Below are positions 1 to 13,948 of a stretch of DNA of 64,000 bases, one piece after another. Positions within the stretch are counted from its first letter, which is position 1, and every line of letters begins with the position of its first letter. The stretch lies in NCBI GenBank assembly GCA_001768235.1, contig MENK01000030.1, forward strand, positions 36,387-100,386. Direction: 5' to 3'. The stretch comes from Bacteroidetes bacterium GWB2_32_14 (GTDB lineage Bacteria > Bacteroidota > Bacteroidia > Bacteroidales > UBA12077). A program made the translations under genes and the position numbers. A model generated the notes under the pieces. That model did no database searches and had not been told where the DNA came from. It saw only the letters and a list, made by a program, of their open reading frames with translations.

Positions 1-521
1 TAAATTTTGGGCCCGCTTTTATCCTTATACTCTCCTTTGCTTGCACGGTCGCTGAGAGTAATAATCTGGATTTTAATAACCCTGGGTAAATATTTTACTT
101 CATCACCAGCTTTAATATTTCCTGTTTTTAATACTTTTGCAAAGATTCCTTCTTTAGGCATAACACATTGGCCAACTTTGCTGAAAATTTCACAACCATC
201 ACCGTGGCATTTTTTACCAATCTGGGTGATTTCCAGTTTAACATCTCCAATGTACAGCATGTCGCCAGGTTTGGTTTTGTACAAGGTAATTCCTTCGGTA
301 GTAATGTTTTCGGCAAATTCACCATATTCAATTTTGCGTCCCAGAACGGATTCAAATTTTTCAATGCTTTCTTTACCTAATAAACTCACCTGACGATGCC
401 AGTCGCCTGCATGGGCATCGTGTTCAACACCTCTTTCTGTTAAATTGATTGTTTCTACAGGTTTTTTTATGGTTCCTTTTTTCTCGGATATATTAACTGA
501 AATAACTTTTATAGCGCTCAT
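1..521 (-). CDS. MOSC domain fused to MogA/MoaB-type molybdopterin domain, partial at left edge
   Basis: The frame opens with ATG at 521 and runs off the left edge after 173 codons. Residues 1-150 read as a MOSC domain: an early ERGVEHDAHAG segment, a GEFAENITTEG segment and the cysteine-bearing KKCHGDGCEIFSK loop. About residue 155 onward, IQIITLSDRASKGEYKDKSG is the typical start of MogA/MoaB, the enzyme that adenylylates molybdopterin before molybdenum insertion. The gene is thus a two-domain fusion, and the MogA half lies mostly outside. MOSC domains are known as sulfur or metal-sulfur carrier modules of the molybdenum cofactor. The moaC, moaA and moeA neighbours support a Moco role. The fusion is read directly; the exact activity of the MOSC half is inferred. 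Confidence 0.88.
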   Translation of the reverse strand, partial: MSAIKVISVNISEKKGTIKKPVETINLTERGVEHDAHAGDWHRQVSLLGKESIEKFESVLGRKIEYGEFAENITTEGITLYKTKPGDMLYIGDVKLEITQIGKKCHGDGCEIFSKVGQCVMPKEGIFAKVLKTGNIKAGDEVKYLPRVIKIQIITLSDRASKGEYKDKSGPKI

Positions 522-1669: not shown

Positions 1670-2125
1670 CTATTCCAAATCAGATTTTGTTTTTTCGATA
1701 AGCTTAATTTCATCAATATTCATTGATTTATCGACTGCTTTGCACATATCGTAAACTGTTAGAAGCCCCACTGACACTGCGGTTAACGCCTCCATCTCGA
1801 TTCCCGTTTTCCCCGTGCATCGTGCTTCGGAATTAATTCTCACCCCGGTTTTATCAAGCGTGGCTTTTACATCCAGTTTTGTAATTTGTAAGGGATGACA
1901 TAAAGGAATTAATTCGCTGGTTCGTTTGCCACCCTGTATGCCAGCAATTTCGGCAATGGTAAGCACATCGCCTTTTTTCATGGAGTTGTCCTTGATAAGC
2001 TTAATCGTTTCCTTTGTTAAAGCAATATGTCCTGTAGCTTTTGCAGCACGGTTTTGGTCAGGTTTTGCTCCAACATCAACCATATTGGCTTTTCCTTTTT
2101 CATCAACATGACTTAATTTACCCAT
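1670..2125 (-). CDS. moaC: Cyclic pyranopterin monophosphate synthase MoaC
   Basis: MoaC converts the MoaA product (3',8-cyclo-dihydro-GTP) to cyclic pyranopterin monophosphate, the first committed molybdenum cofactor intermediate. At 151 residues it has the usual family length. Visible family motifs are MVDVGAKPDQNRAA near the N-terminus, GKRTSELIPLCHPL around residue 66, and EMEALTAVSVGLLTVYDMCKA with KSMNIDEIKLIEKTKSD at the end. It lies 57 bp downstream of moaA in the same direction and is probably co-transcribed with moeA and moaA. Nothing looks damaged. Confidence 0.97.
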   Translation of the reverse strand: MGKLSHVDEKGKANMVDVGAKPDQNRAAKATGHIALTKETIKLIKDNSMKKGDVLTIAEIAGIQGGKRTSELIPLCHPLQITKLDVKATLDKTGVRINSEARCTGKTGIEMEALTAVSVGLLTVYDMCKAVDKSMNIDEIKLIEKTKSDLE

Positions 2126-2182: not shown

Positions 2183-2983
2183 CTATCCTCCAATATTATA
2201 AAATTTACCTGTTAAATTTACATGCCCGCTTTGGGGTTTGTTCCCAACAGCCAGATCAATAGCTTTTTCGGCACCTAACTCACGAACATTGTACTGAATA
2301 TCGCTGAACAAACAGGGTTTAATCATACCATTTGCTGTTAACCGGATACGGTTACAATTTCCACAATCACCACCTGTACCACCGTGAACAACAGAAAAGT
2401 CGCCTTTCTCAAGATTCATTTCCTGAATAAACCGAACATGCAAATTGTTTTCATCGCAAAATTTTGCAACTGTTAAGGCATCGGGTTCATGATGATCTTT
2501 CTTAATAACACAATTGATTTTTATTGGTTCCAATCCGGCATTTTTTGCTGCTTCAATGCCTGCAAATACTTTTTGAATATCACCACCACGTGTAATCTGA
2601 CTAAATTTTTCAGGATCGATGGTGTCAAGACTTATATTTACTCTGTGTAATCCCGCTTTTTTCAAATCTTCTGCAAATTGATCTAAAAGAATTGCATTGG
2701 TAGTCATTGAAAAATCAGAAATCCCTTCAATTTTGCCAATCATTCTGATTAAATCAACAATTCCTTTTCGTACCAATGGTTCGCCACCGGTAATTCGTAT
2801 TTTATCAATTCCCTTTTGAACAGCTATTTTGGTTACAGTTACTATTTCGTGGAAGGATAAAATATCATCGTGTTTGAGTAATGGTACACCATTTTCCGGC
2901 ATACAATATACACATCGTAAGTTACACCGATCGGTAACCGAAATACGGAGATAATTTATTTTGCGGTTATAGCTGTCTAACAT
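2183..2983 (-). CDS. moaA: GTP 3',8-cyclase MoaA, compact form
   Basis: This radical-SAM enzyme starts Moco synthesis by cyclising GTP. The N-terminal cluster motif C20-x3-C24-x2-C27 (DRCNLRCVYC), ITGGEP near 65-69, and the C-terminal cluster C207-x2-C210-x13-C224 inside CGNCNRIRLTANGMIKPC are all present. The NRIR arginines that bind GTP are kept, as is the functionally important terminal Gly-Gly (ends YNIGG). The protein is only 266 residues, against about 320-340 normally. The loss is mainly between the RFIQEM strand and the C-terminal cluster, where roughly 45 residues are missing. The start overlaps the end of moeA by 17 bp, indicating translational coupling. Confidence 0.93.
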   Translation of the reverse strand: MLDSYNRKINYLRISVTDRCNLRCVYCMPENGVPLLKHDDILSFHEIVTVTKIAVQKGIDKIRITGGEPLVRKGIVDLIRMIGKIEGISDFSMTTNAILLDQFAEDLKKAGLHRVNISLDTIDPEKFSQITRGGDIQKVFAGIEAAKNAGLEPIKINCVIKKDHHEPDALTVAKFCDENNLHVRFIQEMNLEKGDFSVVHGGTGGDCGNCNRIRLTANGMIKPCLFSDIQYNVRELGAEKAIDLAVGNKPQSGHVNLTGKFYNIGG

Positions 2984-4139
2984 GAACAGTTTCTCCTTTT
3001 AAAAGGGTATCCACACCAATCGGGAAATAGATTATTCCCTGTGCAAAGGTTAAAGCATGAATGTGAGCAGACCCGTGATATTCAACAGGGAAAACTTCTC
3101 CATCCTCTATAAAAACAGGAATATATGCTTTACGATCTGATTTCTTGCGTTTGTATTCAATTCCCATGGGCATTTGTATGTCCAACGGTTGGAAAACAAG
3201 GCCCATTAATTTGTATATCAATGGTTTTACCAATAGTTCAAATTGAATGAACGATGAAACCGGATTCCCGGGTAATCCAAAACAGAGTTTTTTGCCTGCT
3301 GTTCCGAAGGTTGTTGGTTTTCCAGGTGTTACAGCGATTGAATCGAACAGGATTTCTATTCCGGCTTTTTTAAGTACTTCAGGAACAAAGTCGAACGAAC
3401 CCATGGAAACACCACCGGTTAATAGTACAATGTCATTCTCAGCCAATGCTTTGCTTACTTTATCGAACGTATCTTCAGGTGTATCGTCGGCAATACCCAT
3501 GTAACTTGGAATAGCTCCACAAGCTTTCACTTGTGATATTAACTGATAACCATTGCTGTTTCTGATTTGTGATATGGCTGGTTTCAAGTGTGGCTCAACC
3601 AATTCATCACCGGTAGAAATAATCCCGATTTTAGGTTGTTTGGTTACCAGAACCTGAGTATATCCAACCGATGCAAATACGGCAATATGTTGTGGCTTTA
3701 TTTGTATTCCTTTTTTTAGAACTACCTGTCCTGCTTTTACGTCTTCTGCCTTATAGCTGATGTTATTTCGTTGTGTTACTTTTAAAATCTTAACAAATTT
3801 ATTGTCAGTTTCTTCACAAAATTCAACCATGGCAATAAAATCGGCACCTTTAGGAACAGGTGCCCCGGTCATTATTTTTGCACACTGGTTGGGGCCTATT
3901 TCTTTTTCAGGTGTTTTGCCTGCAGGAATAACTTCAATAATTTCAAGAATATTATTTATATCAGCACGTCGACAAGCATATCCATCCATTGATGATTTAT
4001 CGAAAGGAGGCATTTCTATATCAGACGAAACATCTTCGGCAAGAATTCTTCCTACAGAATCAATAAAATCAACCTTTTCTGTTTCTAAAAGATAGGCTTT
4101 TTCAAGTACCTGCTGATATGCTTTTTCTATGGTAATCAT
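2967..4139 (-). CDS. moeA: Molybdopterin molybdenumtransferase MoeA
   Basis: MoeA inserts molybdate into adenylylated molybdopterin to form active Moco in the cytoplasm. The 390-residue protein has the usual length and domain order. It has the N-terminal PPFDKSSMDGYA signature, a metal-associated APVPKGAD segment, the MoCF-binding ISTGDEL and LLTGGVSMGSFDFVPEVL motifs, TPGKPTTFG and GLPGNPVSSF, and a small C-terminal beta domain. It is first in the moeA-moaA-moaC run and overlaps moaA by 17 bp. The partner adenylyltransferase domain is in the fusion gene at the left edge. Confidence 0.96.
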   Translation of the reverse strand: MITIEKAYQQVLEKAYLLETEKVDFIDSVGRILAEDVSSDIEMPPFDKSSMDGYACRRADINNILEIIEVIPAGKTPEKEIGPNQCAKIMTGAPVPKGADFIAMVEFCEETDNKFVKILKVTQRNNISYKAEDVKAGQVVLKKGIQIKPQHIAVFASVGYTQVLVTKQPKIGIISTGDELVEPHLKPAISQIRNSNGYQLISQVKACGAIPSYMGIADDTPEDTFDKVSKALAENDIVLLTGGVSMGSFDFVPEVLKKAGIEILFDSIAVTPGKPTTFGTAGKKLCFGLPGNPVSSFIQFELLVKPLIYKLMGLVFQPLDIQMPMGIEYKRKKSDRKAYIPVFIEDGEVFPVEYHGSAHIHALTFAQGIIYFPIGVDTLLKGETVHVRQL

Positions 4140-4337: not shown

Positions 4338-5153
4338 TCACAATGTGTCAATAATAAGAAGTTGGTTCTTTATCGAACTCTCTTTAAAATATGAATCTAC
4401 AAGAGTTTTAACCTGATTTACCTTGTTGTTTTGCGGTAGAGTTTTTAGTATTTTTTCAAGATATTTCTTTTCGTAAAGTCGTTGAACGGAGTACTCGAAA
4501 TTCAAATCGAAAAGCCATGCAATTTGCAACAGTTTAAAATCGTTCAGCGTTTTCATCGATTCTTTTAAAATTACCTTACGATTCATAATCGCATGATAAA
4601 CTTCGTCAGTAATTTCGTCAGTATCAGGTAACTCAAGCTCAATGGTTTTGTTTTCTTTTTCTTCTTTTATTAGGTAATATTCGGTAATCAATCGCCAGAT
4701 ATCGAGTTTGTCTGCATCGCGAATCAGTTTTGAAAAGAAAATGACTTTGGGATTTATGTCGGGCTCTATTTCAGCACGATTATGGTTTAAAATGGATTTG
4801 TAAATAATTTCTTTTTGTTCTTCTGCAAGATTTTTTAACAGGTTATTCTCTTTCAGAACTTCCACTCCAAGTTCAGCATGATTCTGTGATTTTGAATCGG
4901 AAAAGGTCTTGTACTTTACATATTGTTTAAATCGTCCGATATCGTGAAAAAGCCCAATGGTTTCGGCTAAAAATGTACCTTCTTCGTTAAGCTTCAGATT
5001 TTTCGCTATGCCAATAATTTCGTCATGTACTTTTCTACTGTGGTCGGCTTTAAGCTCAATGTTTTCATACAAATCAGGATGTGTTTCCAGAAAGTGATTT
5101 ATATAACTGTTAAACCATCGTGTATAGATTGTAAACGTATCAGTATAATTCAT
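4338..5153 (-). CDS. HD-domain phosphohydrolase
   Basis: The 271-residue protein carries an HD domain in its N-terminal half: a histidine in KADHSRKVHDE, the metal-binding pair in ETIGLFHDIGRFKQ, a histidine in SQNHAELG, and a later RDADKLDIWR aspartate. HD enzymes hydrolyse phosphomonoesters or phosphodiesters of nucleotides, but the substrate cannot be read here. There is no signal peptide. It follows the TonB receptor gene by 65 bp and precedes moeA by about 200 bp on the same strand, so it could belong to either unit. I see no direct evidence tying it to molybdenum metabolism. Confidence 0.82.
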   Translation of the reverse strand: MNYTDTFTIYTRWFNSYINHFLETHPDLYENIELKADHSRKVHDEIIGIAKNLKLNEEGTFLAETIGLFHDIGRFKQYVKYKTFSDSKSQNHAELGVEVLKENNLLKNLAEEQKEIIYKSILNHNRAEIEPDINPKVIFFSKLIRDADKLDIWRLITEYYLIKEEKENKTIELELPDTDEITDEVYHAIMNRKVILKESMKTLNDFKLLQIAWLFDLNFEYSVQRLYEKKYLEKILKTLPQNNKVNQVKTLVDSYFKESSIKNQLLIIDTL

Positions 5154-5218: not shown

Positions 5219-7504
5219 TTAAAACTTATAAGCCAACTCAAAAAGGATAAACCTACCGGGCGATAAACGTTGTTTCTTGTCGATATAAACCTTGTCGAAA
5301 ATATTCTGAACATCGAGTGCAACAAAGAAATATTTGCCAATCATTCTTGATAATCGGATATCAGCAGTTACATAGTCATCAATAATCTGGATATTCTGGT
5401 CGTCGGCATATTCCTCGCCAGTATAATTCACAACCAATGTAGAGTTAACAAATTTATTTTTCCAGAATAAGCCTGCAAAAGCCTGATGCCATGGAATCTC
5501 TACCAGTTGTTTCCCGGTTAAGTCATCACCTGCATATTCCGATAAATCGAAATCTTTAATAAGCGAACTATTGTATGTGTAACTTGTTTTGATGGTTAGG
5601 TTTTTTGTGAAATCGTACTGAAAGAAAAACTCACATCCAATGATTTCTATCTGTGCTATGTTTTCTCTTGTGAATTCGGTTTGCCCATCAACATAATTGC
5701 CTGTTTCGACAAAATACTGAAAATCTTTACCCAGTGAATAATAAACTGCTGTTTTAAATTGTGCATTTTTGAATGGATTGGTATTAAAACCCAATTCGTA
5801 ATTGGTTAAGGTTTGTGGTTGCAGTTCAGGATTTGCCTGTTTAAATCCCTTACTTATTTTTCGTGATGAGATTAAATCGTCGAGTTTGGGTGGCATAAAA
5901 CCTGTAGATGCTGAAACATACGATTTTATTGCAGGCGATATTTCATATTGAAGCGCCAACTTAGGACTAAATGCTGTCCAGTTAGATGTTTTATAAGTAT
6001 CAGAAAACGAAGTTTCGAAGCCTGTATTTGCAGTTGGTGCACCTACTTTTATCGAGCCGTCATAAAATCGGGCAAAGTCGAATCGTAAACCTGCAATTAT
6101 CTTGAGTTTATTATTAAACAAACCATATTCATCCTGTAAAAATGTAGCATACGATTGCACTTTCCCTTCGCGAATGAGTGTATCGGTTGATGTAAGGTAA
6201 ATATCCGACGCATCCATAAATCCCTGCTTAATATCTATTCCAAAAGTAAACCAGTTATTCTCTGAGAATTTATGAGTTGCATTCATCCAAACACCATAAT
6301 CTCTTGAAACCTGATCCTGGTAATACAACTTGTAATTTCCATCGTCATTAATAGATTCGCCTAGCTTGTAGTACAACTCATTCTGAAAATAAGCATCAGC
6401 TTCTACTTTAAGTTTTTTAATTTGTCCATTATACTTAGCCCGTGCAAAATGAGTGGTGTACTTTGTGTAACCTCCGTCTTTTTCATAAACCTGAACACCG
6501 TCGCCACGTTTATCGTCGAAAAAACTGTATTCTACTTCAACTTTGTTATTATCGTTGAATTCATACCCCAGCGATGCTCCCAAACGATTTTCTTTAAGAT
6601 AAATTTCTGTATCTGTTGAATCTCTTGAAACTTTAGGTTCAATTACATAACCATCACCTTGTCTGTAAAATCCATTCAGTCCCCAGTACAGATTCTTCCC
6701 TTTTACTTTTTCATTTCCTTCGATATCGAATTTACCGCCTAAAGTTGCATAACTTCCACCAAATGTTCTGATATCACCCGAAAATTGATTCTCTGTTTTT
6801 TTTGTGATGATATTGATTACTCCACCCATGGCATTATTTCCGTATAATGCAGAGCTTGGGCCTTTAATTATTTCAATGCGATCGATGCGTTCAGGCGAAA
6901 TAATACTCCAGTTAATTGAACCACCTGCGGTTTTATTTAATGGAACTCCATTGTACAAAATTAAAACTCCCTGAGCAGCATCCAGGCCACGCATGGTTAC
7001 TGAAGAATTCTTTGAAAAAATACCCCAGCTTCTGTTTACATTAATATTCGCGATTGATTTTAAAATATCGTCGGTGCTTGTTGCAGGATAAACATCGATT
7101 TCTTCTTTTTCAACCACTTCGTTTTGTCCGGGTAAATCATCAACCTGATGTTCTGTTAATGTAGCAGTAATAATAACCTTTTCAATCTCTATGGATGAAG
7201 AAATCATTTTTATTTCAAAAAATGGATTTGAATCTGGTGTTATATTTAGTTTAATCAGCTGGTCATCATAACCCATGAAAGATACACGAATAGTTAACTC
7301 CCCTTCAGGGATGTTTTCGAAAGTAAATTCACCATTGGAATTTGTTGATGTACCTTTTTCGAATTCAGAAATAAAAATATTGGCTCCAGCCAAAGCAAGA
7401 TTCATTTCTGCATCAATAACTCTCCCTTTTATGCTGTTTTGTGAAAAAACAAAAACCGGCAGGAGCAAGGTAAAAAGAAAAGTATAAATAGACTTTTTAA
7501 ACAT
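5219..7504 (-). CDS. TonB-dependent outer-membrane receptor, candidate molybdenum/tungsten compound receptor
   Basis: The 761-residue protein has a signal peptide (residues 1-21, ending VFSQ), a CarboxypepD_reg-like domain (about 24-110), a plug with SVTMRGLDAAQG, LYNGVPL and GPSSALYGNNAMGGVINIIT (about 125-235), and a beta barrel ending in the C-terminal aromatic FELAYKF. Such receptors import large or scarce ligands across the outer membrane using TonB energy. It lies 10 bp after the lipoprotein gene, at the end of a run that starts with a ModE-like regulator and continues toward moeA. The ligand is inferred from context only; the barrel itself does not reveal it, and another metal chelate is possible. 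Confidence 0.85.
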   Translation of the reverse strand: MFKKSIYTFLFTLLLPVFVFSQNSIKGRVIDAEMNLALAGANIFISEFEKGTSTNSNGEFTFENIPEGELTIRVSFMGYDDQLIKLNITPDSNPFFEIKMISSSIEIEKVIITATLTEHQVDDLPGQNEVVEKEEIDVYPATSTDDILKSIANINVNRSWGIFSKNSSVTMRGLDAAQGVLILYNGVPLNKTAGGSINWSIISPERIDRIEIIKGPSSALYGNNAMGGVINIITKKTENQFSGDIRTFGGSYATLGGKFDIEGNEKVKGKNLYWGLNGFYRQGDGYVIEPKVSRDSTDTEIYLKENRLGASLGYEFNDNNKVEVEYSFFDDKRGDGVQVYEKDGGYTKYTTHFARAKYNGQIKKLKVEADAYFQNELYYKLGESINDDGNYKLYYQDQVSRDYGVWMNATHKFSENNWFTFGIDIKQGFMDASDIYLTSTDTLIREGKVQSYATFLQDEYGLFNNKLKIIAGLRFDFARFYDGSIKVGAPTANTGFETSFSDTYKTSNWTAFSPKLALQYEISPAIKSYVSASTGFMPPKLDDLISSRKISKGFKQANPELQPQTLTNYELGFNTNPFKNAQFKTAVYYSLGKDFQYFVETGNYVDGQTEFTRENIAQIEIIGCEFFFQYDFTKNLTIKTSYTYNSSLIKDFDLSEYAGDDLTGKQLVEIPWHQAFAGLFWKNKFVNSTLVVNYTGEEYADDQNIQIIDDYVTADIRLSRMIGKYFFVALDVQNIFDKVYIDKKQRLSPGRFILFELAYKF

Positions 7505-7514
7505 CGGTGCAATC

Positions 7515-8429
7515 TTATTTTTGAATTTTTACATCGATAATAATGTACCCGTTATCTGTCCCGCTGGTACTAACTACTTTGAATAATCCTGTTCTGCTGC
7601 CCCGGACAAATGAGTAAATATCATCAGGCACAAGGCTTTTCGCTTTTCTTTTCCCGCTTTCAAAAGCAAACGAGTTTGCAATAAGAATACTATCGTTAGC
7701 TGCAGCATCAAACTCTTCAGGTGTAATGCTTAGTTTTGCAGCACTATATCGGGTTGTGTTTATGGTATCCCAGTTTGCAATTGCAAATTCACCAGGGAAA
7801 GCCGTTTCACCTATGTTTGCTCCCGGTGATGCCAGAACACATTCATCCATAGCATCGAAGTTATCATAATAATAAACAATATCGATTAGCCCGGAGTTGT
7901 TGTATGCTTCTTCAAGATTATAAACCAGTCCATTGGATAAGGAAAGGAAGCTTCCAAACCCGGTATTATTTTGTGCCCCCAGCGTAATATTCAAAAATTC
8001 ATCGATTTCACCGTACTCTACAATCGGGTTTTTTGTAATTGTAAATCCAATACTGGCAGAGTGCCCGGCTTTATCACGAACAATGAATTCCCATTCTTCA
8101 ATATCAGCCAAACCTTTAACTAATGTAAGTTCTTCTTCAATTATTTTGTGATTATAACCAAGACTTATATATGATTCACCATTAACATTAGCAATCAGGT
8201 TTGTCAAATAATCGGTTCCGTTATATTCCGCAGCAATTCCAACTTTTATAGAATCGCCAACAGAAATCATTGTGTCCGACGAAATATAATCAGCATTTAT
8301 AATAAATTGAATTGTAGGATTTGGCCCTGATGTTTCTTCATCTTCACAACTATAAAATATTGTCAGAATAAAAGAAATTAAAATAAAAAAACGAATATGC
8401 TTTTTTATTGGATGTGTTAAGTTTTTCAT
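7515..8429 (-). CDS. Lipoprotein in the ModE/TonB-receptor cluster
   Basis: The 304-residue protein has a type II signal ending at a lipobox cysteine (LTIFYSCEDEE, Cys near residue 28), with acidic residues after it that in Bacteroidota often mark surface export. The middle (about 40-135) looks like beta-sandwich repeats. The C-terminal part has an NYSGLIDIVYYY-like region and ends in a strand pattern GYIIIDVKIQ. I recognise no named family. It is packed 10 bp before the TonB receptor gene, the arrangement of a surface-exposed binding partner. A substrate-capturing role is inferred from that position. Confidence 0.7.
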   Translation of the reverse strand: MKNLTHPIKKHIRFFILISFILTIFYSCEDEETSGPNPTIQFIINADYISSDTMISVGDSIKVGIAAEYNGTDYLTNLIANVNGESYISLGYNHKIIEEELTLVKGLADIEEWEFIVRDKAGHSASIGFTITKNPIVEYGEIDEFLNITLGAQNNTGFGSFLSLSNGLVYNLEEAYNNSGLIDIVYYYDNFDAMDECVLASPGANIGETAFPGEFAIANWDTINTTRYSAAKLSITPEEFDAAANDSILIANSFAFESGKRKAKSLVPDDIYSFVRGSRTGLFKVVSTSGTDNGYIIIDVKIQK

Positions 8430-8473: not shown

Positions 8474-9049
8474 CTATTTCCTGAGTCTCTTGATTGAATA
8501 TACTAAACCTGCTCCCAATAACGCTCCGGCAAGTCCAAAAACAAAGTGTGATGCAATTGGAATAACAAACCCCCATTTAATAAATGATGATTCCATAATT
8601 CCGGTAAACATATAAATACCCAGCCTGCTTATTGGAATTACCATGTAAGTTAAACCACCAATTAACGTGAGTATTGCCAATCGGTTCGATGGGTTTCTGA
8701 AAACAAAATATAAGCTGTCTAAAACAATACCCATGAGTAAATAGGTTACAGGCAAAAAAGGGTCTTTAATACCTATAAATGGAACAAACATAATGCTTGA
8801 TGCTCCAACCATTGCAATAACAGAAGCAAAAGGAATTTTTGAAACTCTGCGGCCTATGATTAAAATTGCCATAAACTCCAAACCATGACGCCCGGGAATA
8901 TTTAAAGGAATTCTAAGATACGATCGGAGCATTACAGCGCTAATACCCAGAAGCAATAAAAATAAAATTTCAAGTACTGTTGAAAGTGTATTAGTTTGAA
9001 ATGTTTTTGATAAACTCTTTTGATACATGCTGCCATTCATGGTTTTCAT
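8474..9049 (-). CDS. Multi-pass membrane protein resembling ECF-type S components
   Basis: At 191 residues with about five or six hydrophobic helices and no soluble domain, it has the size and shape of an ECF transporter substrate-binding (S) component. RIPLNIPGRHGLEFMA in the first loop is the most distinctive segment. No ECF ATPase or T component is in the window. The frame overlaps the upstream TiaS-like gene by 59 bp; methionines at residues 4 and 8 would shorten the overlap, and I cannot decide the start. Its place between the TiaS-like gene and the lipoprotein/TonB pair suggests it is the inner-membrane part of an uptake route. The S-component assignment is tentative. Confidence 0.6.
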   Translation of the reverse strand: MKTMNGSMYQKSLSKTFQTNTLSTVLEILFLLLLGISAVMLRSYLRIPLNIPGRHGLEFMAILIIGRRVSKIPFASVIAMVGASSIMFVPFIGIKDPFLPVTYLLMGIVLDSLYFVFRNPSNRLAILTLIGGLTYMVIPISRLGIYMFTGIMESSFIKWGFVIPIASHFVFGLAGALLGAGLVYSIKRLRK

Positions 9050-9731
9050 TATTTTTAGATTTTTCTACAATTACAGTTATTTCTTTATTTTGGATAACCG
9101 GACGTAACCAGTTTCCGACATCTATTCGTTCGTTATCATTAATTAATTTGCCATCAACAGACTTAATGACCTGAATATGGCTAATCTTTTTAAGTTCTGA
9201 GCCTGAAAATATTCCGCTAATTTCGCGTAATTCTTTTCCTTTTACCCAGATATTTCTTCCGTCGTTTCCTGCTTTTCGTAATCCGACAGCAGCAAGGGAA
9301 CCAATAACACCAATTTTTGTCCCAGTATATCCTTCTAAGAAAATACCGGTTTCTTCAGCTAGCTTATGAGCATTTTTTTTGTAAAGAATTTCTTTTTTTG
9401 CCCGATTGCCCCAATCAATGATATGGTCATTAATTAAATCTTCTCTTGCAATGCAAAGTCCGGCATCAGAACCTTCTGCAGCTTCACGAATCAAATATTC
9501 AGAGCATAGTTTTTGTAAAGCATCGTATTTATCGGAATTTACAATTAAGCACGCCGAGCTGTTATGGGATGTATAAGGGATTTTCTCGTGTACATACAAT
9601 TGATGCCGTGATATGGATTCAACATCACCGAGACCCTGCTCAACAATAAGTTTCCCCATCTCACGTGCTCTAAAACCTGTACCTCTGGAGTCTAAATTAT
9701 CGGTATCATCAATTCCCACGAGAAATCTCAT
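8991..9731 (-). CDS. TiaS/DUF1743-like protein with N-terminal GIDDTD motif
   Basis: The 246-residue soluble protein begins with FLVGIDDTDNLDSRGTG (GIDDTD at residues 6-11). This matches the start of archaeal TiaS, which uses ATP to modify C34 of tRNA-Ile2 with agmatine. A second conserved stretch is YTSHNSSACL, and GTKIGVIGSLAAVGLRK follows near residue 140. The zinc ribbon and OB domain of archaeal TiaS are absent. Bacteria normally use TilS for that tRNA, so tRNA modification is not expected. It lies 8 bp after the ModE-like gene and overlaps the membrane-protein gene, which points to a different, possibly metal-related ATP-dependent role. Family resemblance is moderate and function unknown. 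Confidence 0.65.
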   Translation of the reverse strand: MRFLVGIDDTDNLDSRGTGFRAREMGKLIVEQGLGDVESISRHQLYVHEKIPYTSHNSSACLIVNSDKYDALQKLCSEYLIREAAEGSDAGLCIAREDLINDHIIDWGNRAKKEILYKKNAHKLAEETGIFLEGYTGTKIGVIGSLAAVGLRKAGNDGRNIWVKGKELREISGIFSGSELKKISHIQVIKSVDGKLINDNERIDVGNWLRPVIQNKEITVIVEKSKNNENHEWQHVSKEFIKNISN

Positions 9732-9739
9732 ATACTTGT

Positions 9740-10117
9740 TTATGTATTCAATTTGTTAAAAAATCTTTTTGTTATTAAGTGAATAGCATCATCAAATTCG
9801 GTTAACAATTCTTTATATGCTTCGATTAATTTTTTGCCTTCAGGCGTAAGAACAGAATTTCCGCCGTGTGCTCCACCTCTATGTTTTTCAACAAGCAAGA
9901 AACCTAATTTTTCTTCAGCTTCTTTCACGTTTCCCCATGCTTTTCGATAACTTATTCCCATTTTATCGGCAGCGGCACTCAACGAACCATACTTGTCGAT
10001 CATTTCAAGTAATTCGAATTTGCCATCACCTAAAATTCCATGACCCTTTGTATTCTCAAGCCATACCTTGAATTTCAGGAAAATATCATAATATTTTGAA
10101 CCTTTTGAGCCTGCCAT
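9740..10117 (-). CDS. ModE-like winged-helix transcriptional regulator without molybdate-binding domain
   Basis: The 125-residue protein matches the N-terminal DNA-binding domain of ModE: KFELLEMIDKYGSLSAAADKMGISYRKAWGNVKEAEEKLG is the helix-turn-helix (about 32-72), followed by a wing with HRGGAHGGNSVLTPEGKKLIEAY. Full ModE carries two C-terminal mop (TOBE) domains that bind molybdate; this one stops before them, so direct sensing is unlikely through that route. It is the first gene of the cluster and 8 bp ahead of the TiaS-like gene, so it probably regulates its own operon. The link to molybdenum rests on the ModE resemblance plus the Moco genes downstream. Confidence 0.88.
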   Translation of the reverse strand: MAGSKGSKYYDIFLKFKVWLENTKGHGILGDGKFELLEMIDKYGSLSAAADKMGISYRKAWGNVKEAEEKLGFLLVEKHRGGAHGGNSVLTPEGKKLIEAYKELLTEFDDAIHLITKRFFNKLNT

Positions 10118-10228: not shown

Positions 10229-10510
10229 CTATTTGTAAAGACAACGGTATGAAGTATCGCCATCAACTTTTACTTTGAATTTAACATCTTTAGCAACTAC
10301 AAAGGTTTCAAATTCTTTATACGTTTTCCATTCGGTTTCGCCTGGTTGTTGTATAATCATTTTACCAGATGTAACAGTCATGTATTCTACTGTTGATGTT
10401 CCGAATATATATTCACCTTTTGCCATTACACCAACTGTTGCCGGACCTTCGGCTGTTTCGAAAGCAATTGATTTTACTTTTCCGTCGAAATATTCGTTTG
10501 TTTTAAACAT
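10229..10510 (-). CDS. ppnP: Pyrimidine/purine nucleoside phosphorylase PpnP
   Basis: The 93-residue protein is a small cupin of the former DUF1255/YaiE family, whose Escherichia coli member phosphorolyses a broad set of nucleosides. Length matches the family. Characteristic segments are NEYFDGKVKSIAFET at the N-terminus, ATVGVMAKGEYIFGT, YMTVTSGKM, PGETEWKTYKEFETFVV and the terminal YRCLY. It is a single-gene unit with its own terminator, divergent from pruA across a 138-bp shared control region. A TAnnTTTG box on the minus strand (10538-10545) is its likely -7 element. Confidence 0.93.
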   Translation of the reverse strand: MFKTNEYFDGKVKSIAFETAEGPATVGVMAKGEYIFGTSTVEYMTVTSGKMIIQQPGETEWKTYKEFETFVVAKDVKFKVKVDGDTSYRCLYK

Positions 10511-10648: not shown

Positions 10649-12277
10649 ATGCAACAAAGTTTATATTTTGCCCCACCGGCAAAGAACGAACCGGTAAAAA
10701 CCTATATAAAAGGTTCACCCGAGAGGGAACAAATAATGAAAGCCATTGAATGGGCACGATCACATGTAGTTGATATTCCGATGATAATTGACGGGAAAGA
10801 AGTACGAACTGATAAAAAAATAGAGATTCATCCGCCACACGATCATCAGCATTTATTGGGCTATTATTACAGGGGCGACGAAAGTCATGTGAAAGACGCC
10901 ATTGATGCTGCTTTAAGAGCACGTGAAAAATGGAGTACTATGTCATGGAAACAACGTGCATCTATATTTTTAAGAGCAGCAGGAATGATTGCCGGGCCTT
11001 ATCGTGCCCGTATTAATGCGGCTACTATGCTTGGCCAGTCGAAATCAGTACATCAGGCTGAGATTGATTCTGCATGCGAATTTGCTGATTTTCTAAGGTT
11101 TAATGTTCAGTATATGACTGAGATATACAATCAGCAACCCAATTCAAGCGAGCTGGTTTGGAACCGCTTGGAACAAAGACCCCTTGAAGGGTTTGTGTTT
11201 GCATTAACACCCTTTAACTTTACTGCTATTGCGGGCAACTTGCCTTCAGCACCTGCAATGATGGGTAATACAGTAGTATGGAAACCATCAAATACACAAA
11301 TTTATTCGGCAAGGATAATTATGGAAATATTCATGGAAGCTGGCTTACCTGATGGTGTAATTAACCTGGTATATGTTTCAGGGCCGGTAGCAGGAAATGT
11401 GATTTTCTCTCATCCCGATTTTGCAGGAATTCATTTTACAGGTTCAACATCGGTATTTCAAAATATATGGAAAGAGATTGGGAATAATATTTCAAAATAC
11501 AAATCATACCCACGCATTGTTGGTGAAACAGGTGGTAAAAACTTTGTGATGGTACATGAATCAGCAAATGCAGCACAGGTTGCTACGGCATTAACCCGAG
11601 GAGCTTTTGAATACCAGGGCCAGAAATGTTCTGCTTTATCACGTGCTTACATTCCTTCAAATTTATGGGATGAAGTACTTTGCGAAATCAAATGCGATAT
11701 GGATACTCTAAAGATGGGGCCTGTTGAAGATTTTACAAATTTCATGAATGCTGTAATCGATGAGGCATCCTTTAATAAACTTGCAGGTTTTATTGATCGT
11801 GCAAAGAAAGATAAAGATGTGGAAATTATTCATGGTGGAAACTATGATAAATCGAAAGGATATTTTATTGAACCAACGATTATTCTTACCAAAGATCCCC
11901 ATTATATAACCATGGAAGAAGAATTATTCGGGCCTGTTCTTACAATCTATTTATATGATCCAGCAAAATTTGAAGAAACACTTGACCTGATTGATACAAC
12001 ATCAATTTATGCACTGACAGGATCAGTGTTTTCTAAAGACCGTTATGTAATTGAACGGGTAATGGAACGATTAAAACACGCGGCGGGGAATTTTTATATT
12101 AACGATAAACCTACAGGAGCAGTAGTGAGCCAGCAGCCATTTGGCGGAGCACGCGGCTCAGGTACTAACGATAAGGCAGGTTCATACTTAAACCTTTTAC
12201 GATGGGTATCACCACGAACGATTAAGGAGTGTTTCTTACCTCCAACAAGTTATAAATACCCGTTTTTGGAAGAATAA
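10649..12277 (+). CDS. pruA: L-glutamate gamma-semialdehyde (delta-1-pyrroline-5-carboxylate) dehydrogenase
   Basis: This 542-residue aldehyde dehydrogenase oxidises glutamate semialdehyde to glutamate with NAD, the last step of proline and part of arginine degradation. It is a stand-alone P5CDH like those of mitochondria and Bacteroidota, not a PutA fusion. Visible features are the N-terminal extension, TPFNFTAIAGNLPSAPA, the HFTGSTSVF nucleotide-binding segment, catalytic Glu in ETGGKNF and catalytic Cys in YQGQKCSALSRAYI, then EELFGPVLTIYLY and QQPFGGARGSGTNDKAG. The proline dehydrogenase gene is not adjacent. The overlapping dyad at its promoter suggests repression or substrate-dependent control. 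Confidence 0.96.
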   Translation: MQQSLYFAPPAKNEPVKTYIKGSPEREQIMKAIEWARSHVVDIPMIIDGKEVRTDKKIEIHPPHDHQHLLGYYYRGDESHVKDAIDAALRAREKWSTMSWKQRASIFLRAAGMIAGPYRARINAATMLGQSKSVHQAEIDSACEFADFLRFNVQYMTEIYNQQPNSSELVWNRLEQRPLEGFVFALTPFNFTAIAGNLPSAPAMMGNTVVWKPSNTQIYSARIIMEIFMEAGLPDGVINLVYVSGPVAGNVIFSHPDFAGIHFTGSTSVFQNIWKEIGNNISKYKSYPRIVGETGGKNFVMVHESANAAQVATALTRGAFEYQGQKCSALSRAYIPSNLWDEVLCEIKCDMDTLKMGPVEDFTNFMNAVIDEASFNKLAGFIDRAKKDKDVEIIHGGNYDKSKGYFIEPTIILTKDPHYITMEEELFGPVLTIYLYDPAKFEETLDLIDTTSIYALTGSVFSKDRYVIERVMERLKHAAGNFYINDKPTGAVVSQQPFGGARGSGTNDKAGSYLNLLRWVSPRTIKECFLPPTSYKYPFLEE

Positions 12278-12299: not shown

Positions 12300-12370
12300 G
12301 TCATTCTGAGCAATGCGAAGAATCTTTTTGCAAGGTAATGAAAATCAGATTTTTTGTTTCTTTCAGAATG
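12300..12370. repeat. REP-like repeat overlapping the upstream part of an extended frame
   Basis: TCATTCTGA (12301-12309) has an inverted partner TCAGAATG (12363-12370), and GCAATGCGAAGAATCT follows the left arm. The pattern resembles the dispersed CATTCTGAGCGAAGCGAAGAAT element common between genes in this phylum. It lies in the gap between pruA and the next dehydrogenase. An in-frame ATG inside it (12338) would append 18 repeat-derived codons to the downstream gene, so that start is rejected. Confidence 0.55.
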
Positions 12371-12391
12371 GCAATACAAAAAAATAAATTA

Positions 12392-13948
12392 ATGACTACA
12401 ATAGATTTTAATATTAAAGAATTACTGTTACGATTAGGAATTAAAGATATCAATTCGGGTGTAACCACCGGAACAAAATGGTTCGATGTTCATGGTGCTG
12501 TAACATCATCGGAATCGCCTATTGATGGTAAAGAAATTGCAAAAGTAAAGAATGCCACAATCGATGATTATGAAATGATAATTTCTAAAGCACAGGAAGC
12601 ATTTAAGATATGGAGAGAAATACCAGCGCCCAGTCGCGGAGAAATTGTTCGCCAGATTGGACTTGCTCTTCGTGATGCCAAAGAAGATTTAGCTAAACTG
12701 GTAACACTGGAGATGGGTAAAATATATACCGAGGGTCTTGGCGAAGTACAGGAAATGATTGATATATGTGATTTTGCTGTCGGTCAATCGCGTTTGCTAA
12801 ACGGATTTACAATGCATTCTGAAAGAAGAAATCACAGGATGTACGATCAGTATCATCCGATTGGTTTGGTAGGTTTGGTAACATCATTCAATTTTCCTGT
12901 TGCCGTGTGGGCATGGAACTCTATGCTTGCAGCTATTGCAGGCGATGTGGTAATCTGGAAGCCAAGTTCAAAAACACCCATCTCGGCAATTGCAACTATG
13001 AATATTATTCAGAATGTACTTAAAGCGAACAATGTTCCCGAAGGAGTTTTTAGTTTGATTATTGCAAAATCGTCTGTTTTAGGCGATAATTTTCTTGCCG
13101 ATAAACGAATACCCCTGTTTTCTGTAACAGGTTCAACTGCTGTAGGAAAACGTGTTGGTAAAATTGTTGGTGAACGATTGGGAAAAACAATTCTTGAATT
13201 AGGTGGTAACAATGCAGTAATTGTATCGGATTCGGCTGATTTGGAAATGGCTATTCCTACCATTGTTTTTGGTGCAGTAGGAACAGCAGGGCAGCGATGT
13301 ACATCAACGCGCCGTGTAATTGTTCATGAGAAAGTTTATGAACAGGTTAAAGAGCGATTGGTAAATGCCTACAAACAAATCGTGTATAAAATAGGAAATC
13401 CCTTAAATACAGAGACCCTGGTTGGGCCACTTATTGATATCCATTCGGTAAATGCATTTAAACATGCTGTTGAAACTGTTGAAAAGGAAGGTGGCAAAGT
13501 GATTTTCGGGGGTCAGGTTTTGGAAGGTGAAAAATATAAATCAGGGAATTATGTTGTACCAGCTATTGCCGAAGCTCAGAATCATTACCAGATTGTTCAG
13601 GAAGAAACTTTTGCACCCATTGTTTACCTGATTAAGTACACAACTTTTGATGAAGCAATTGAATTGAATAATGGCGTTCCACAAGGATTATCATCAGCAT
13701 TGTTTACAATGAACATGCGCGAGAGTGAACAGTTCCTGGGCGAAGTGGGTTCCGATTGTGGTATTGCAAATGTGAATAGTGGTACATCAGGAGCCGAAAT
13801 TGGTGGTGCATTTGGCGGGGAGAAAGATACAGGTGGTGGACGGGAATCCGGTTCCGACTCTTGGAAAGCGTACATGCGGCGACAAACCAACACGATTAAT
13901 TATGGTACAGAATTACCGCTGGCACAAGGAATTCGGTTTGAGTTTTAA
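12392..13948 (+). CDS. ALDH7-family aldehyde dehydrogenase (alpha-aminoadipic semialdehyde dehydrogenase type)
   Basis: Starting at MTTIDFN (12392) gives about 518 residues, close to antiquitin/ALDH7. These enzymes oxidise alpha-aminoadipic semialdehyde (piperideine-6-carboxylate) in lysine breakdown and clear other aldehydes. Motifs are TSFNFPVAVWAWNSMLAAIAGD, the VTGSTAVGKRVG nucleotide site, catalytic Glu in LELGGNNAV and catalytic Cys in GTAGQRCTSTRR, with EETFAPIVYLIKY and GGAFGGEKDTGGGRESGSDSWK near the end. An upstream in-frame ATG at 12338 lies in a repeat and is unlikely to be used. It follows pruA in the same direction; both act on amino-acid semialdehydes, and co-transcription is plausible. 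Confidence 0.93.
   Translation: MTTIDFNIKELLLRLGIKDINSGVTTGTKWFDVHGAVTSSESPIDGKEIAKVKNATIDDYEMIISKAQEAFKIWREIPAPSRGEIVRQIGLALRDAKEDLAKLVTLEMGKIYTEGLGEVQEMIDICDFAVGQSRLLNGFTMHSERRNHRMYDQYHPIGLVGLVTSFNFPVAVWAWNSMLAAIAGDVVIWKPSSKTPISAIATMNIIQNVLKANNVPEGVFSLIIAKSSVLGDNFLADKRIPLFSVTGSTAVGKRVGKIVGERLGKTILELGGNNAVIVSDSADLEMAIPTIVFGAVGTAGQRCTSTRRVIVHEKVYEQVKERLVNAYKQIVYKIGNPLNTETLVGPLIDIHSVNAFKHAVETVEKEGGKVIFGGQVLEGEKYKSGNYVVPAIAEAQNHYQIVQEETFAPIVYLIKYTTFDEAIELNNGVPQGLSSALFTMNMRESEQFLGEVGSDCGIANVNSGTSGAEIGGAFGGEKDTGGGRESGSDSWKAYMRRQTNTINYGTELPLAQGIRFEF

Follow-up and report, generated by a model that had tools for sequence, protein, structure and literature searches.

Stand-alone kinase-like proteins of the TiaS TCKD fold recur in tungsten and molybdenum gene neighbourhoods and probably act in metal acquisition

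An open reading frame of Bacteroidetes bacterium GWB2_32_14 encodes a protein that is predicted to consist of one kinase-like domain, with the fold of the TCKD domain of TiaS, and relatives of this protein recur beside genes for the import and use of molybdenum and tungsten. Our preferred reading, to which we assign a probability of about two in three, is that this stand-alone domain works in the acquisition of tungsten, and also of molybdenum, and not in tRNA modification. The evidence favors tungsten as the likelier metal, in view of riboswitches that lack the P3 stem, tungsten-type aldehyde oxidoreductases (AOR) and TupA-like binding proteins. The molybdenum and tungsten context is well supported; the reaction is a proposal. 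The window, which is the whole stretch of DNA that was analyzed, comprises 64,000 nucleotides of contig MENK01000030.1, and its relevant features are collected in Table 1.

Table 1. Positions of the kinase-like gene and its neighbors, counted from the first nucleotide of the window.
Feature	Position	Strand	Evidence
ModE-type HTH protein (125 aa)	9740..10117	-	TIGR00637 E=1.7e-22, 79.4 bits, below cut-off 98.5; PF00126 HTH_1
TiaS-TCKD-like protein	8991..9731	-	ORF, 52-row alignment, AlphaFold2 model pLDDT 94.2, TiaS Z 24.1
GIDDTD codons (residues 6-11), motif common to TiaS	9699..9716	-	alignment to TiaS; D8 D9 T10 D11 invariant 52/52
Membrane protein MEM3 (191 aa), ECF S-component-like fold	8474..9049	-	model pLDDT 88.4; best PDB match 5edl
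Lipoprotein-like protein (304 aa)	7515..8429	-	no Pfam match at E<=1; relatives in 12/66 loci
TonB-dependent outer-membrane receptor (761 aa)	5219..7504	-	Plug E=1.9e-25, barrel E=1.7e-35
HD-domain protein (271 aa)	4338..5153	-	PF01966 E=2.6e-9
MoeA	2967..4139	-	NF007960 E=1.4e-87, below its cut-off
MoaA (266 aa)	2183..2983	-	TIGR02666 E=1.2e-87, over cut-off
MoaC	1670..2125	-	TIGR00581 E=7.6e-57, over cut-off
MOSC-domain protein	3..521	-	NF011069 positions 163-306, E=1.1e-55, below cut-off

The kinase-like frame starts with an ATG at position 9731 and encodes 246 aa with the N-terminus MRFLVGIDDTDNLDSRGTG. It is a real gene of a conserved family and not a chance motif. Six peptide patterns, run once over GTDB genomes, recovered 66 loci that encode relatives, a count that is a lower bound, and when 51 of these homologues were aligned with the window protein, 19 positions were invariant across the 52 rows. 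Residues D8, D9, T10, D11 and N12 were the same in all 52 rows, among them the putative catalytic acids D8, D9 and D11, and every row had Thr (45) or Ser (7) at residue 18. The window protein matched no Pfam family over its cut-off, and the 52 members matched only the models of methanogenesis marker protein 11 and TiaS (NCBIfam, E<=0.001). The TCKD domain itself is already known, and it is the family that has no name in the Pfam and NCBIfam libraries searched; the single plasmid record that annotates a member calls it a hypothetical protein. A phage origin of the gene was set aside because no match to the family was found in 50,697 phage records.

TiaS is the tRNA(Ile2) 2-agmatinylcytidine synthetase, represented by PDB entries 4rvz, 3amt, 3amu and 5xob, with PF22641 as its TCKD domain. 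The kinship of the window protein to TiaS is weak in sequence and strong in predicted structure. The Pfam TiaS_TCKD model gave E=0.0085, below cut-off, and the NCBIfam TiaS model NF040849 gave E=3.1e-4 over residues 1-151 only, where its 19.4 bits stay far below the cut-off of 600; the latter model matched 46 of the 52 members at E<=0.001. When the AlphaFold2 model (mean pLDDT 94.2) was used as a Foldseek query against the PDB, all nine matches at E<=0.001 were TiaS chains, and comparison with 4rvz by VIA gave Z 24.1 and rmsd 1.6 over 154 residues with 25% identity, against Z 7.7 for the best row outside TiaS. Weak matches to HPPK (VIA, Z about 7) and to PII proteins (Foldseek, E about 0.004) were taken as the common ferredoxin-like arrangement. 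Family residues D8, D9, T10, D11, R42, N57, G91, G141, I143 and G144 are the same in 4rvz, eight that are invariant in the family (N12, G17, Q44, T54, S55, S58, D89 and L151) differ there, and G158 falls outside the alignment. In TiaS the acids bind Mg-ATP and Thr18 is phosphorylated. We read the window protein as one in which the nucleotide side may be kept and the acceptor side rebuilt, and which may work like the TCKD kinase; kinship to TCKD does not prove kinase activity, which is here a prediction.

The remaining domains of TiaS were also sought. PF08489 (TiaS_FLD, formerly DUF1743) had no match in the window's genome at E<=0.001 and did match in four archaeal controls. Where a zinc ribbon or OB region would be expected, the window protein ends at residue 246, and it holds no C-x2-C. 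With no FLD detected and a chain that stops short of the later TiaS domains, the protein is a stand-alone kinase-like domain of predicted TCKD fold and is not TiaS. The original prediction had described a TiaS/DUF1743-like protein without the RNA-binding zinc ribbon. Its TiaS half is borne out for the TCKD domain, by the overlay and by the conserved acids and Thr/Ser18 alike, and its DUF1743 half is wrong, since PF08489 has no match in the genome; the GIDDTD motif does align with that of TiaS, and the ribbon is absent as proposed. A role other than AUA decoding, which it also proposed, is supported by TilS, whose model scored over cut-off in the window's genome and in 44 of the 49 others searched.

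A midpoint-rooted tree of the window protein and 62 loci, with rows in six bacterial phyla, split into clades A and B with support of 100/100. Clade A (28 rows, including the window) contains Bacteroidota, Pseudomonadota, Planctomycetota and Chloroflexota, and clade B (35 rows) contains Bacillota, Thermodesulfobacteriota and three Pseudomonadota. Members were also found on two haloarchaeal plasmids (L070 has 36% identity over 218 columns). On the annotated haloarchaeal plasmid the member adjoins an iron-type ABC transporter, whose binding protein has its nearest match in 2etv, annotated for iron (E=1.6e-67), and is only weakly related to MolA (E=6.9e-8). Furthermore, a plasmid of the actinomycete Pimelobacter simplex with three annotated genes (L071; NZ_CP097987.1, 3820 bases) carries a family member, a MEM3-like gene (hhalign to MEM3, E=3.4e-8) and a glycine-rich frame.

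In 26 of the 35 clade B rows the kinase-like gene is followed by a small ORF that encodes four Cys residues and the motif SCYNCRYRRW. Two further rows, L023 and L041, have the motif within the frame of the kinase, which brings the rows with the motif to 28 of 35; the seven without it are Desulfobulbaceae/Desulfocapsaceae, and a pattern search found no such ORF in clade A loci. The ORF is mostly 65-75 aa long (L026:6762-6974 and 26 further loci), and two members matched no Pfam family. Its product may be a partner protein that binds zinc or an iron-sulfur cluster. In L041 (3701-4768) the kinase frame continues through the Cys motif and reaches the first part of an FAD oxidoreductase-like domain, where the contig stops; this long frame may reflect a fusion, an assembly fault or another genetic code.

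In the window, the gene lies in a run of nine on one strand, which reads ModE-type HTH, kinase-like gene, MEM3, lipoprotein, TonB receptor, HD, MoeA, MoaA and MoaC. The ModE-type gene and the kinase-like gene are 8 nt apart and the MEM3 ORF overlaps the end of the latter by 59 nt. With this overlap and with mostly short gaps (198 nt before MoeA), the run is probably transcribed as one or a few units. The MOSC-domain gene is parted from MoaC by a plus-strand ORF (621-1547). Profile searches detected no molybdate-binding domain in the ModE-type HTH protein, and the nearest solved relatives of the plug part of the TonB receptor are the colicin I receptor, PhuR and BtuB. The MoaA frame is short, covering only positions 1-198 of the 336 in its profile. 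Two aldehyde-dehydrogenase-like genes, named by eye (10649-12277 and 12338-13948), lie divergently beside the cluster, and a number of Bacteroidales loci (L001-L005, L017 and L027) retain the pair. A PpnP-type nucleoside phosphorylase (10229-10510; PF06865, E=1.1e-31) is encoded just upstream of the ModE-type gene, and its relatives are likewise placed in some related loci.

The predicted model of MEM3 (pLDDT 88.4) was closest to the ECF S component 5edl (VIA Z 13.8, rmsd 3.6, 164 aligned; Foldseek E=0.096), with a Z near the noise level of helical bundles. The S components for thiamin, biotin and riboflavin gave Z 10 to 12, BtuM gave Z 8.3, and methane/ammonia monooxygenase chains gave Z 10 to 11, as helical bundles easily do. 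In L029 a MEM3 relative adjoins an ECF ATPase (over cut-off), CbiQ and TonB, and protein clusters showed the same order in L034. EcfT (CbiQ, PF02361) had no match in the window genome, so the MEM3 of the window would act without an ECF module. By tblastn, MEM3 relatives were present in 31 and TonB receptors in 27 of the 66 loci; MEM3 was missed in two of the 27 clade A loci, L025 and L051, of which L025 has it by protein clusters. The MEM3 relatives searched against Pfam gave no match over cut-off.

Searches of the 66 loci with 28 query proteins (tblastn) and with the riboswitch model RF01055 revealed at least one molybdenum- or tungsten-linked gene or riboswitch in 56 of them, a figure that is a description and not a test, as the neighbor queries were drawn from the same loci. 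The elements were MolA-type binding proteins (23 loci), ModE-type proteins (21), TupA-type proteins (15 to 17), RF01055 (11), MoeA (8), MoSto (7) and a tungsten radical SAM maturase (2). Ten loci had none (L007, L008, L010, L019, L028, L030, L037, L050, L051 and L065); in two of these the contig is 7.3 or 6.4 kb long. Among solved structures, the binding protein of L031 was most closely related to MolA HI_1472 (PDB 3psa/3psh; E=8.7e-25), which binds molybdate and tungstate as the naked oxyanion, and the same locus encodes a protein that matches the model of the tungsten cofactor oxidoreductase radical SAM maturase, below its cut-off (E=2.8e-101; 339 of the 380 bits required). The TupA model matched in L034 (E=1.4e-48) and L015 (E=1.1e-16), in both cases below cut-off. 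A MoSto-like protein (276 aa, named by eye) is encoded divergently beside the kinase-like gene in L043, L044, L046, L049, L057 and L061; these loci belong to Desulfobulbaceae/Desulfocapsaceae, and UMP-kinase-type matches were obtained for L043.

Regulator-type matches, either ModE-type or an HTH with a binding-protein-like part, lay near the gene in 22 of the 66 loci. ModE as the defining partner is too narrow a view, with ModE-type tblastn matches in only 21 loci, some of which are not ModE and represent an HTH joined to a binding-protein-like part (L009). Taken together, the kinase-like gene is a recurring cytosolic-type member of metal-import loci that are otherwise different: TonB receptor with ECF-S-like protein, MolA-type ABC, TupABC, ECF with TonB, and MoSto/ModA/TupA. 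The original prediction named a ModE-like regulator and a membrane protein as neighbors, which is what the window holds. The linkage to ModE and transport genes that it suggested was found, with metal-linked elements in most loci, and is broader than ModE; the outcome that it named as a refutation, a wide bacterial distribution lacking ModE or transport neighbors, did not occur. Its guess of a molybdate-related kinase-like protein was largely right, with tungsten now the likelier metal, and its phrase "in a bacterium" undersells a family of six phyla, one actinomycete plasmid and two haloarchaeal plasmids.

Tungsten is needed by aldehyde oxidoreductases and some formate dehydrogenases. For 49 of the 66 loci, we compared the host genomes with 14 control genomes. 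MoaC was present in 48 of the 49 carriers, which says little because 11 of the 14 controls have it too. AFOR_C, the marker of tungsten-type aldehyde oxidoreductases, matched in 42 of the 49, and is not proof of tungsten use because five of the 14 controls match, E. coli among them. TupA-like matches, none over cut-off, were found in 34 of the 49 carriers and two of the 14 controls. Six of the seven carriers without AFOR_C had FDH-alpha-type matches, five of them over cut-off, and these were set aside, as they say nothing on the metal used. In 296 sampled Bacteroidota, the family was found at E<=1e-10 in the window genome only, and AFOR_C in three genomes, including the window genome with two genes. 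When the window genome and six Bacteroidota loci were taken as carriers, AFOR_C was present in six of these seven and in two of the 295 others (Fisher p=2e-10), with the reservation that the carriers are mostly MAGs and their sampling thus differs. Two of the three sampled Bacteroidota with AFOR_C lack the kinase-like gene, which therefore is an accessory and not a requirement.

The presumed action of molybdenum and tungsten riboswitches is to shut genes down once enough cofactor is available. Among the 66 loci and the window, RF01055 gave 14 matches in 11 loci; at the gathering score there were none in the window, in any Bacteroidota locus or in the proteobacterial loci of clade A. Ten of these loci are in clade B, and the eleventh (L062, Eubacteriaceae) has the same make-up and was too short for the tree. 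One copy in L034 ends 96 nt before the kinase-like gene, and in L023, L026, L029, L047, L048 and L062 the riboswitch precedes a stretch of mostly co-directional genes, the kinase-like gene among them; operon membership in L026 and L029 is presumed, because mechanical opposite-strand ORFs intervene. In L036, L040 and L052 it comes after the kinase-like gene and before ABC genes. The P3 stem is absent in 13 of the 14 copies, as judged from printed alignments (six copies), by pattern (four: L029 twice, L036 and L040) and by eye where the pattern gave nothing (three: L034:1-120, L047 and L048). The sole copy with P3, in L031, precedes moeA. P3-less RNAs go with tungsten-cofactor organisms according to section 11 of PMC2408646, where this is a correlation. 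The gene in some clostridial and Geobacter/Desulfuromonas-type loci is downstream of a tungsten-cofactor-linked type of riboswitch. Over 11 genomes (~37.5 Mb), 12 of the 48 RF01055 matches over cut-off fell in family loci against 0.17 expected at random, an enrichment that is overstated because nine of the 11 genomes were picked for an RF01055 match in their locus.

A cytosolic step in tungsten scarcity is the simplest account of these results, because the gene recurs beside differently built importers and, in several loci, behind presumed off-switch RNAs. We propose that the protein would be made when the tungsten cofactor is scarce and would bind Mg-ATP, and that ATP might be used to capture or activate incoming tungstate or molybdate, or a cofactor precursor that receives the oxyanion. 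The product could then pass to MoeA-type insertion. The reaction would be a phosphotransfer, with the oxyanion, a pterin or a carrier as candidate acceptor. That oxyanion capture is itself the step is a tentative suggestion, which we hold to be doubtful. A bolder form, that this is the first ATP-using enzyme to capture or activate tungstate on entry (a tungstate/molybdate kinase), together with TonB-dependent tungstate uptake, strikes us as unlikely. If it were true, marker 11, the TCKD relative in methanogens, would be a metal-handling enzyme for tungsten/molybdenum formylmethanofuran dehydrogenase or a similar step.

The alternative that survives best, itself rather improbable, is a pterin or cofactor kinase that would transfer a phosphate or adenylyl group to molybdopterin, tungstopterin or a related pterin compound taken up from outside, either for salvage or on a branch that leads to the tungsten cofactor, with transporters that carry an organic compound. 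TonB receptors, FecCD-type ABC and ECF-S-like proteins are typical cofactor-uptake transporters, BtuB is among the nearest solved relatives of the TonB receptor, BtuM is among the fold matches of MEM3, and the pterin pyrophosphokinase HPPK is among those of the kinase model. However, the HPPK rows are at the level of the common fold arrangement, the L031 binding protein has its best solved relative in MolA, an oxyanion binder, and TupA-like proteins lie beside the gene in several loci. Salvage would also not replace synthesis, given MoaC in nearly all carriers, and an imported pterin as a substitute for de novo synthesis is therefore disfavored.

Improbable to a greater degree is a sensor or regulator with no turnover of its own, which would bind both ATP and the oxyanion and act on the importer or on the ModE-type/HTH regulator. 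It would fit the regulator-type matches noted above, the window HTH protein with no detected metal-binding domain of its own and the PII proteins among the weak fold matches, but most loci have no regulator match, the PII matches are weak, and the preservation of D8-D11 and Thr/Ser18 over 52 members suggests catalysis. Finally, a TiaS-like tRNA or RNA modifying enzyme that sits in metal loci by chance is very improbable and is rejected as the main role, since the shared fold and a small four-Cys ORF that could supply a zinc ribbon in trans are outweighed by the missing FLD and lack of room for later domains, the eight residues unlike TiaS, the prevalence of TilS, the metal-gene context, a patchy distribution that goes with AFOR_C (one of 296 Bacteroidota) and the absence of the Cys ORF, by pattern, from clade A.

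Acquisition of tungsten thus remains our preferred role for the family, and several consequences follow. An unnamed family gains a testable role in microbial tungsten acquisition, a TonB-dependent route for tungstate or molybdate becomes possible, and methanogenesis marker protein 11 gains a functional lead. Our literature search found the phrase "methanogenesis marker protein 11" in no paper and nothing on TunR; papers that matched COG1571 or TIGR03280-type terms were archaeal by title, and among the matches listed, of far larger sets, no title or abstract start described the family. The string "mmp11" in the excerpts of PMC12584684 belongs to the locus tags MMP1169/MMP1168 and not to marker 11. 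A table of methanogen proteins in PMC1852104 includes the COG1571 protein MMP1593, which may be marker 11.

Among known systems, the molybdenum and tungsten riboswitch regulon comes close in that 11 of the 66 family loci carry RF01055, nearly all copies of which are P3-less; such a protein is not named in the portion of PMC2408646 that we consulted. Marker 11 (TIGR03280) is the profile nearest to the window protein, nearer than TiaS (E=7.7e-11, residues 2-153), and 49 of the 52 members match it at E<=0.001. However, the score of 41.6 bits misses the equivalog cut-off of 255.8, the match begins at profile position 134, so that positions 1-133 have no counterpart, and the family hosts found here are not methanogens. 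With TiaS the window protein has in common the TCKD kinase-like fold, GIDDTD, T18 and the GxIGxLAAVG motif; in contrast, it has no detectable FLD, stops short of the later domains, does not reach the full-length equivalog NF040849, departs from 4rvz at eight family-invariant residues and is surrounded by genes of molybdenum/tungsten type. To our knowledge, the MolBCA and TupABC transporters have not been described with such a kinase-like protein, whereas in many of the loci presented here their homologues are its near neighbors.
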